Assembly (NCBI GenBank): GCA_937919925.1
Contig: CALFOT010000086.1
Coordinates: 1-64,000 of the forward strand
Direction of reading: 5' to 3'
DNA: 64,000 nucleotides
From: an uncultured bacterium
GTDB taxonomy: Bacteria; Planctomycetota; UBA1135
The notes beneath the pieces are model-generated. The model did not search any database and was not told the DNA's origin. It saw nothing but the letters and a program-made list of their open reading frames with translations. This document shows positions 29,034 through 32,380 of the stretch, in pieces; position 1 is the first letter of the stretch, and each line of letters starts with the position of its first letter. The position numbers and the translations under genes were made by a program.

Positions 29034-29972
29034 TTATTGTGCGGTGCGCCGCGGATCGGTTTTTTCAATGCTTCCTGCGCGACGCCCGGCGAAGGGCATA
29101 ATTTGTCTCGGCGAGGTTCCTTGGACGACGTAGGCATGTAGTTTGCGCAATGTGTGACTTTCGATTTGACGAACACGCTCGCGGGAAACGCCCAGCGCAT
29201 TCGAAGCCGTTTCCAGGGTTGCTGGTTCCTGGTCGTCGAGACCATAACGCATACGGAGCACGGCTGCCTCGAGCGGATCGATAATCTCTAGAATATCGCG
29301 TAAAGTAGCCAGCGAATCTTCGTGCATTACGATTTCATCAGGTGGCTTGCAATCGCGATTGTGGTCGCGGTGTTGTCCAGGAACGGCGCACATGCTCTCG
29401 TCGCCGAGAGAGGAATCAGCTTCTTGACTACGCAAGGTTTGCTGCACAACCGTGGTGTTTTTGTGGGAAATACCGATTTGCTCAGCAATTTCTAACGGCG
29501 AAGGGCGGTGGCCGTTGTCGTTTTCAATCTCGTGAGAAACGCGATTCCACTTGGTGAGAATCTCCACCATGTAAGAAGGCACGCGGACATTCTTTACCGA
29601 GTTGATGAGAGCGCGCCGAATGGTTTGCTGAATCCACCAAGTTGCGTAGGTGGAGAACCGAAAGCCCGCCTCTGGATTAAACTTGGCAATTCCCTTCAAC
29701 AAGCCGATGTTGCCTTCGGCAATCAAATCGGGAAGGGTAAGGCCGCGATTGCGGAAACGCTTGGCAATGGAAACGACGAGGCGCAAGTTCGCCCGGATCA
29801 TTTCTTCGCGGGCCACCTCGTCGCCCTGCTGAACCAAACGGCCCAATAAGACTTCACGCTCCGCGTTCAGCAGCGGAACTTCGTCGATTTCACGAAGGTA
29901 GGTTTCTAGGCAGCGATCAGAGGCGATGGGTAAGCTCCTGGTGGTTAAACATGAATGAGGCGCAGATATCAT
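29034..29972 (-). CDS. RNA polymerase sigma factor, RpoD/RpoS family
   Basis: ETYLREIDEVPLLNAEREVLLGRL...RANLRLVVSIAKRFRNRGLTLPDLIAEGNIGLLKGIAKFNPEAGFRFSTYATWWIQQTIRRAL...GVSRERVRQIE. Confidence 0.9.
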   Translation of the reverse strand: MISAPHSCLTTRSLPIASDRCLETYLREIDEVPLLNAEREVLLGRLVQQGDEVAREEMIRANLRLVVSIAKRFRNRGLTLPDLIAEGNIGLLKGIAKFNPEAGFRFSTYATWWIQQTIRRALINSVKNVRVPSYMVEILTKWNRVSHEIENDNGHRPSPLEIAEQIGISHKNTTVVQQTLRSQEADSSLGDESMCAVPGQHRDHNRDCKPPDEIVMHEDSLATLRDILEIIDPLEAAVLRMRYGLDDQEPATLETASNALGVSRERVRQIESHTLRKLHAYVVQGTSPRQIMPFAGRRAGSIEKTDPRRTAQ

Positions 29973-30057
29973 CCGCACCTCTATGACCTTTTCGGCAAGG
30001 CGCGTGTTCCCCTTTAGATTTTGCAAATAACAAAAGGGATGGCTCATTTGGGCCGAA

Positions 30058-31431
30058 ATGAGAGAATCCACATTGCAAGACGCCCCCCCTACCATGGCTT
30101 CCTTACCCTCATGGCCCGAAGAAGGCCCTAGACGTAGCCTCTTAACCGAGGCTAGATTCGCTCAAGCCCTTTATAAAGAAGGGTTTGAGTTCGTTCAAGA
30201 ACTACAATTTTTGCGTTCTATCGGCACCGACGGCTGGATGGAGCGTCGCCTTTATGCCCTTTACCGGAAAAGCACCGATATCGAAACTTTTCTGGATGAT
30301 CATGGCGCCCCGGCGAACCAAACTTTTTTTATGACTCGGGAGCTGATAGCCGGAGCCCGCTGGCTTTCCCTTGCCTGCTCCTGCTTGGTCCATTTGCGCA
30401 GCCGCTTGAAGGCCTATCCCCAGGCCAACCTAGAATGGGCCCAGGCGCGGTTACCGGATCACCTGCAAGTAGCCATTGATTGCTTTGGCAGCTACCTTGT
30501 GAAATGCGCCGAAGGTATTTCTGAAGAATGGGTTAGATTGGGCCTCCCGTGGCCAGAAAACGCCCAAAGTTCGGTCGCAAGTCATGCTGCCCCGAAACTG
30601 ATCCTGCCGGCGAATAGATTGCCAGAAGCTGATGAACGCGCAGAAGCGGGCCAACAGGCCTCCCTTCCTGCGGCCCGCTTGGTTGGTAGAGTTTTACGTC
30701 TCTTGAATATCTGGGCTCCCTTACGAGGCGTGGGCACTGGCACGCACGAGGAGCGCCAAAGCTTTATGGAGAATTTCTGTAGTGAGGCCACGGCGCGGGA
30801 TTTTGAGTCGCGGGTACACAACCTGCAAAGCGAGTACGACTCCAATATTCGAGGCTCTGCAGAGGAGAAGGAGCATGCCGACCTGCTGCGGTTGCGCGGT
30901 GGAATCAGCCAATGCCTACATTTATTGGAGGCGGTGACCGCCTTGACCCACCTTTATGAGCGCCACCAGGTTCACCAGCGCCACCCGGCCACTCGCCGGG
31001 TTCTTGCGCGCATTGTGGACTGGGAGGAATATCTTCGCATCACGATTGAGTGTTGTATTTTGCCTGCGTTTTTCAGCCTTTCTCACGCCGAGGACGTGGT
31101 GGCAGGCCTGCTGAAGATACTTACGGTACAATCATTTAGGGATTTTGAAATACCAGATGGAGTTTCTTTACACGCTCGTCCCCTATCTTTAATTGTCGGC
31201 ATTGTGCACCACTTTGGCTTGCCGGTAGAGATCGAAATTCACGGAAAACGCGCCAGCGCCGCAAGCATGATGTCGATGCTGATTCTTTGTGGAAGCCACC
31301 TAGATGCCAAATCCGTTCGCTTCCACGGTGACGCAGCAGTGCTCACCGATTTAGAGGATTTGTTTGAAGCAAGGCTGGGTGAGGATGGCCTGGAAGCTTT
31401 CCCCCCCCGCCTGAAGTATTTGATTCGGTAG
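30058..31431 (+). CDS. Uncharacterised ~360-aa helical region with C-terminal HPr-like domain
   Basis: C-terminal FEIPDGVSLHARPLSLIVGIVHHFGLPVEIEIHGKRASAASMMSMLILCGSHLDAKSVRFHGDAAVLTDLEDLFEARLGED shows the HPr LHARP active-site motif and SMMSMLIL motif; N-terminal portion unrecognised. MASLPSW at 30094 is an alternative start. Confidence 0.7.
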   Translation: MRESTLQDAPPTMASLPSWPEEGPRRSLLTEARFAQALYKEGFEFVQELQFLRSIGTDGWMERRLYALYRKSTDIETFLDDHGAPANQTFFMTRELIAGARWLSLACSCLVHLRSRLKAYPQANLEWAQARLPDHLQVAIDCFGSYLVKCAEGISEEWVRLGLPWPENAQSSVASHAAPKLILPANRLPEADERAEAGQQASLPAARLVGRVLRLLNIWAPLRGVGTGTHEERQSFMENFCSEATARDFESRVHNLQSEYDSNIRGSAEEKEHADLLRLRGGISQCLHLLEAVTALTHLYERHQVHQRHPATRRVLARIVDWEEYLRITIECCILPAFFSLSHAEDVVAGLLKILTVQSFRDFEIPDGVSLHARPLSLIVGIVHHFGLPVEIEIHGKRASAASMMSMLILCGSHLDAKSVRFHGDAAVLTDLEDLFEARLGEDGLEAFPPRLKYLIR

Positions 31432-31477: not shown

Positions 31478-32380
31478 ATGGCAAACGCACCTTCTAAACG
31501 CCTCGGCAAGGGCATTGGCTCCTTGCTTTCCAATAAACACGCTACCGACTCCCTCGGCGGGGACGGAAAACTTTGGGTTTCACGCGATGAAATTAGGCCG
31601 AACCGCGAACAGCCGCGGATAGCCCTCGACAAGGGGGTTGAAAGGCTGGCCGAGTCTTTACGGCGTCATGGGATGATGCAGCCTATTCTGGTGACCCACC
31701 GGCCTGAAGGCGGCTACGAAATCCTTGCTGGTGAGCGCCGTTGGCGGGCCGCCGAGCTTGCTGGCATGAAAAGTGTGCCCGTGATCCTGCGGGAAGGCAC
31801 CCTTTCTGGTGACGAGCGGCTGGAACTGGCGCTAATCGAAAACGTTCAGCGTGAAGACCTCGATTCCATCGAAAAGGCCAGGGGCTGCTCTCGCCTTATG
31901 ACGGAGTATCAACTCACCCAAGAAGAGGTCGCCCTGAAGTTGGGCTACCAGCGCTCCACCGTGGCGAACCTCGTGCGACTTCTTGATTTGCCAATCGAAA
32001 TCCAGCACGATGTTTCACGTGAAACAATTAGCGCAGGGCATGCGCGCGCGCTCCTGCAATTACGCGATTCGCCGCTGCAAGCCCAGGCTTGGCAAGAGAT
32101 TAAGGCCAACGATGTTTCGGTACGGGGGGCGGAGAAGCTCTGTTCCACCCTGGCAAAAGGGGAGCGTTCTCCCAAACATTTACCGCGAACCGCAAAGCCA
32201 GCCTGGGCGGCGGAGCTTCAAGATCGGTTAACAAGAAGCCTAGGCCTCCGCGCCGAGATCAAGCTCCACGGGCGGGGAGGTGGCAAGCTCGTTCTGCATT
32301 TCGCCGAACTGGACGACCTTGATCGTTTGGTTCAGGGAATCAACCTTCCTTCCGAAATGGAAGATTTGACGGCTGGATAA
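31478..32380 (+). CDS. parB: Chromosome partitioning protein ParB/Spo0J
   Basis: MANAPSKRLGKGIGSLLSNK...VSRDEIRPNREQPR...YEILAGERRWRAAELAGMKSVPVI...LALIENVQREDL. Confidence 0.95.
   Translation: MANAPSKRLGKGIGSLLSNKHATDSLGGDGKLWVSRDEIRPNREQPRIALDKGVERLAESLRRHGMMQPILVTHRPEGGYEILAGERRWRAAELAGMKSVPVILREGTLSGDERLELALIENVQREDLDSIEKARGCSRLMTEYQLTQEEVALKLGYQRSTVANLVRLLDLPIEIQHDVSRETISAGHARALLQLRDSPLQAQAWQEIKANDVSVRGAEKLCSTLAKGERSPKHLPRTAKPAWAAELQDRLTRSLGLRAEIKLHGRGGGKLVLHFAELDDLDRLVQGINLPSEMEDLTAG
32011..32026. promoter_or_regulatory. parS centromere site inside parB
   Basis: tgtttcacgtgaaaca, exact 16-bp palindrome matching consensus TGTTTCACGTGAAACA. Confidence 0.93.

Follow-up and report, generated by a model that had tools for sequence, protein, structure and literature searches.

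The locus described here raises the question of whether HPr, a small phosphate-relay protein that is usually standalone, is encoded as the C-terminal part of a much larger protein in an uncultured Planctomycetota bacterium, and what such a protein might do. The gene lies in a 64,000-nucleotide stretch of one contig (hereafter the window) and its features are listed in Table 1. The initial annotation described it as a candidate new protein family with a large helical N-terminal region joined to HPr, beside a sigma factor gene and parB, and suggested a phosphorylation-responsive regulator linking carbon state to transcription or the cell cycle.

Table 1. Features of the HPr-fusion locus in window coordinates.
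Feature	Position	Strand	Evidence
HPr-fusion gene	30058..31431	+	457 aa; open reading frame and translation, shared domain order in relatives
All-helical N-terminal domain, residues 26-357	30133..31128	+	AlphaFold2 model of the domain alone, pLDDT 92.8, pTM 0.92; no known family
HPr domain, residues 358-442	31129..31383	+	PF00381; predicted strand/helix order; Foldseek TM 0.82-0.84 to HPr
Codon of H372, HPr phospho-His (His15 equivalent)	31171..31173	+	H372, R374 and P375 invariant in 97/97 proteins
S403 codon, aligned with HPr Ser46	31264..31266	+	Ser in 70/74 and 15/23; lost where HPr carries the insert
Family-specific C-terminal tail ending ...LPxxLxYL	31384..31428	+	P449, L452, Y454 and L455 conserved
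Divergent sigma-70 family gene (RpoD/RpoS-like)	29034..30095	-	Sigma70 r1.2, r2 and r4; neighbour in 70/79 named loci
parB, downstream neighbour	31478..32380	+	ParB_N, HTH_ParB and ParB_C; neighbour in 66/79 named loci

A two-domain protein with a C-terminal HPr fold

The fusion is a real two-domain protein in which a conserved all-helical domain is followed by a genuine HPr fold, and the architecture proposed for the open reading frame was confirmed by AlphaFold2, Foldseek and Pfam. The whole chain was modelled by AlphaFold2 with a mean pLDDT of 91.7 and a pTM of 0.88. Purifying selection on the gene was evident from comparison with relatives of 69% identity (dN of about 0.23-0.24, dS of about 3 or saturated). 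Alignments of the relatives begin near residue 13, so that the ATG at 30094, which would give a 445 aa product, is a likely alternative to the listed start. A same-genus copy (L012, G002:C25:184007-185344) has one internal, in-frame TAA stop, which may be a sequencing error or mark a recent pseudogene.

The C-terminal domain proved to be an HPr open-faced sandwich by predicted fold, and Foldseek aligned it with HPr crystal structures at a probability of 1.00 (TM-to-target as in Table 1). The Pfam PTS-HPr family (PF00381) matched residues 362-437 with an E-value of 3.5e-6 and 27.4 bits, against a curated cut-off of 23, and matched all 74 diverse family members examined (E up to 1). A profile of the family searched against PDB sequences matched solved HPr structures at an E-value of 5e-14. 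The domain is divergent, with 27 bits to PF00381 and a TIGR01003 score under that model's cut-off (28.8 vs. 47.9 bits). Canonical HPr (PF00381, TIGR01003) and Crh/NPr share the open-faced fold and the H-x-R-P motif with the fusion, and the Ser46 position is kept in the fusion's short form (see below), whereas in the fusion HPr forms the C-terminal part of a roughly 450 aa chain that ends in a conserved tail. The tail pattern, G441-E442...P449..L452.Y454-L455, is a family signature according to conservation among 97 proteins.

The phospho-His codon lies where the initial annotation placed it, and the H-x-R-P phospho-site (H372/R374/P375) was invariant in the 97 proteins, which come from several phyla. 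The motif was kept even in members whose HPr domain is otherwise remodelled, and the phospho-site is the feature maintained by selection. Neither of the two outcomes named beforehand as counting against the HPr reading, a different C-terminal fold and a non-conserved His, was found. The divergence of the domain from PF00381, together with an insert of about 100 aa in some lineages, would be consistent with an HPr domain that has lost phosphate carrying and serves only as a docking or structural binding module. We consider this very improbable, as the catalytic pair H372/R374 and P375 remained invariant across several phyla despite heavy change elsewhere in the domain.

An all-helical domain with invariant charged and histidine residues

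The initial annotation recognised nothing in the first 360 or so residues, and this region remained a helical domain outside the curated Pfam and NCBIfam families. Its confident stand-alone model (Table 1) had no match among PDB folds by Foldseek (best E-value 0.19, TM below about 0.3), and viral folds gave none. Searches of curated Pfam, NCBIfam and PADLOC returned no family, with scattered weak matches in one to three members only, and an identity as a PADLOC defence family was discarded. Because all-helical folds are handled poorly by fold search, the comparison with PDB and viral folds supports the modelled domain as a new fold only provisionally.

Two further candidates were rejected. The polyphosphate-binding CHAD domain was only a weak Foldseek listing (probability 0.33, TM 0.20) and was absent among the 50 matches listed for the helical domain alone. 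For an internal duplication of the domain, D80...A98...H112...R116 lined up in register with D261...S284...H298...R302 both visually and with hhalign, but the match fell short of significance (P = 0.08).

Six residues of the helical domain (E76, D80, N87, H254, D261, and R280) were invariant in 97/97 proteins and seven others (E243, R247, Y260, H288, H298, R302, and H303) were nearly so. Invariant charged and His residues make it most likely, on this sequence evidence, that the domain has a binding role, for a ligand or a partner, or is enzymatic.

Distribution of the family and loss of the Ser46 position

The two-domain architecture recurred in several bacterial groups when homologs with the same arrangement were sought, in agreement with the proposal of a new family. 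Relatives, counted when full-length or nearly so, were present in 59 of 294 Planctomycetota genomes (a match with E < 1e-30 covering the helical domain), in 29/297 genomes from the phylum to which a deltaproteobacterial carrier belongs, in 10/289 genomes of the Oligosphaera phylum, and in Bacterium UASB270. Every relative protein that was read through contained the helical domain followed by the HPr domain; thus, no helical domain lacking HPr was encountered among them.

Two forms of the family were distinguished. The short-HPr form comprises the window protein and the deltaproteobacterial group. The insert form, found in the Oligosphaera phylum, UASB270 and some Planctomycetota, carries about 100 extra residues in or immediately following the Ser46 region (L119, L120, L164-L171, and L195-L200); its members keep the phospho-His motif, and most have lost the Ser.

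The segment initially assigned to the regulatory-Ser helix does have a Ser at the Ser46 position: S403 lies 31 residues past the phospho-His, the same spacing as in canonical HPr. A Ser is kept at this position in the window protein and most short forms and has been lost in several whole lineages, which leaves the Ser, and HPr kinase (HprK) acting on it, unsupported as a regulatory input. Searches with PF07475 and TIGR00679 detected HprK in none of 13 genomes of the order; the host genome is 87% complete, and these searches also missed B. subtilis in the control set. HprK is likely absent from the genome. As an input it was rejected because neither model matched in the 13 genomes and the Ser is not universal.

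PTS components and known HPr fusions

Enzyme I (EI) and HprK were said to be missing from the window. This is correct for the window, but the genome as a whole encodes a number of PTS components. Enzyme I (G000:C75) is complete by motif, and three EIIA domains were found. A standalone HPr is encoded on G000:C10 within an HPF-EIIA-HPr cluster (L135:7430-8493, minus strand), and this cluster of standalone HPr, EIIA protein and ribosome hibernation factor is a regulatory-PTS core. A second EI-like protein of 577 aa (G000:C87, L137:6165-7898, minus strand) retains the phospho-His motif NSHGSI, but its active-site Cys is replaced by Tyr and a PEP-site motif is missing; it is possibly a pseudo-EI, judging from these motifs. 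An EI of the G000:C87 type was rejected as a dedicated partner of the fusion, because genomes of the same order that lack the fusion can also carry two EI-like genes. Co-occurrence with EI was likewise rejected as evidence: EI was present in 54/54 fusion-bearing genomes vs. 53/55 genomes without a fusion match, and a component nearly as frequent without the fusion says nothing about a specific link.

Planctomycetes were placed in a regulatory EI group, most members of which do not have PTS transporters (PMC2405797). As in the transport-free regulatory PTS of Planctomycetes and Proteobacteria, EI, HPr and EIIA are encoded in the host genome, but the fusion protein would be a component additional to these three.

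HPr fusions are already known, and the uncharacterised partner domain is what is new here. In a survey of 222 genomes, HPr was usually fused with EIIA (PMC2405797). The multiphosphoryl transfer proteins FruB/FPr and DhaM likewise join HPr to another domain, but they carry EIIA and sometimes EI (PMC2405797), whereas the partner in the fusion is all-helical with no PTS match; PF00381 was the only match in the chain, with neither an EIIA nor an EI domain. The fusion could nevertheless be a multiphosphoryl-transfer protein in which the phosphate of His372 is passed to one of the conserved His residues in the helical domain (H254, H288, H298 or H303), making that domain a new phosphoryl acceptor comparable to the EIIA of FruB/FPr and DhaM. 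The prevalence of EIIA among described HPr fusions (PMC2405797) and the conservation of these four His residues agree with such a transfer. The helical domain, however, matched no EIIA family or fold and no adjacent PTS gene was seen at the window locus, and we regard this reading as distinctly unlikely.

Gene neighbourhood

The sigma factor and parB genes noticed beside the fusion gene belong to a conserved neighbourhood in which pyrF, hemW and the sigma gene (all minus strand) precede the fusion gene (plus strand), followed by parB (plus strand in the window). Among 79 named loci, the sigma gene was a neighbour in 70, hemW and parB each in 66, and pyrF in 50. The listed start of the sigma gene overlaps the fusion gene, so its true start is probably further downstream. 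An extra open reading frame, metallophosphoesterase-like by eye, lies between the fusion gene and parB in several of the loci read.

The sigma/parB synteny is strong in one branch of Planctomycetota only, and most relatives elsewhere lack it. In 12 further Planctomycetota loci, sigma and parB genes were nearby in 6/6 with the short-HPr form; with the insert form, parB was found in 0/6 and a weak sigma match in one. Neighbours differ in the deltaproteobacterial group, with pheST/MerR-like genes in a subset and dnaG-rpoD near the fusion gene in three loci (both by eye). At one deltaproteobacterial locus (L188:7373-9597), a gene that appears RapZ-like by eye directly follows the fusion gene. RapZ genes often occur in PTS-Ntr clusters.

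On the complete Pla86 chromosome, about 21 kb separate the fusion gene from the end of the record, and the record opens with a dnaA-like gene (by eye). This position indicates that the sigma/parB synteny may partly reflect an origin-proximal block, and the conserved cluster probably lies close to the replication origin. A parA-like gene was also seen by eye near the ends of this chromosome (L140, L141). The suggested link to transcription or the cell cycle comes only from synteny in one Planctomycetota branch, possibly in part an effect of origin proximity.

The neighbouring sigma gene also invites comparison with E. coli Rsd. Rsd is likewise an all-helical protein that works with HPr and involves a sigma factor: in E. 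coli it is bound by dephosphorylated HPr, which prevents it from binding sigma-70 (PMC8509676, PMC4598750). By analogy, the fusion could be a built-in anti-sigma factor, comparable to Rsd and HPr in one chain, whose helical domain would bind the neighbouring sigma factor under the gate of HPr phosphorylation. The frequency of the divergent sigma gene and the presence of dnaG-rpoD near three deltaproteobacterial copies are in line with this analogy. Rsd, however, is a separate 158-residue protein (PMC8509676), and the helical domain did not resemble it in sequence or listed fold: Rsd was not found with the profile against PDB sequences or among the 50 Foldseek matches listed per model, and an Rsd-like fold was rejected. 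Moreover, most copies outside the one Planctomycetota branch have no sigma gene nearby, and the adjacency is explicable by origin-proximal synteny. An anti-sigma role seems quite improbable.

Proposed function and significance

The invariance of H372, R374 and P375, the HPr fold and the presence of EI, HPr and EIIA genes in the genome favour reading the fusion as the output component of a PTS with a regulatory rather than a transport role, with the helical domain controlled by phosphorylation of His372. We hold this with moderate confidence, giving it about an even chance. In this mechanism, enzyme I would phosphorylate His372, directly or via the standalone HPr. The HPr domain would pack against the helical domain at a defined site; the whole-chain pTM is above expectation for a free-floating HPr and suggests such packing in the model. 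A change of charge at His372 would then alter the packing and switch the activity of the helical domain. The partner of the helical domain in the window lineage may lie in transcription or in chromosome maintenance near the origin, a weakly supported suggestion. A bolder form of the regulatory-PTS reading, possible but unlikely, makes the helical domain a novel enzyme or signalling module whose fold lies outside the PDB and which is switched directly by PTS His-phosphorylation; in this Planctomycetota branch it would link PEP/carbon state with the neighbouring sigma factor or with chromosome functions close to the origin.

No description of a fusion of HPr with this helical domain was found in the freely accessible journal literature; the label "HPr family phosphocarrier protein" may already be attached to such sequences in databases. 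Surveyed HPr fusions pair HPr with other PTS phosphoryl-transfer domains, whereas the partner here is an uncharacterised domain conserved across several bacterial groups. The recurrence of the pairing in at least three bacterial groups suggests that the fusion is probably a genuine, uncharacterised PTS output. The invariant residues and confident models make mutagenesis and structural work immediately possible. The protein would thus offer a direct handle on the role of the transport-free PTS in Planctomycetota and their relatives, since the domain attached to HPr should be the output.
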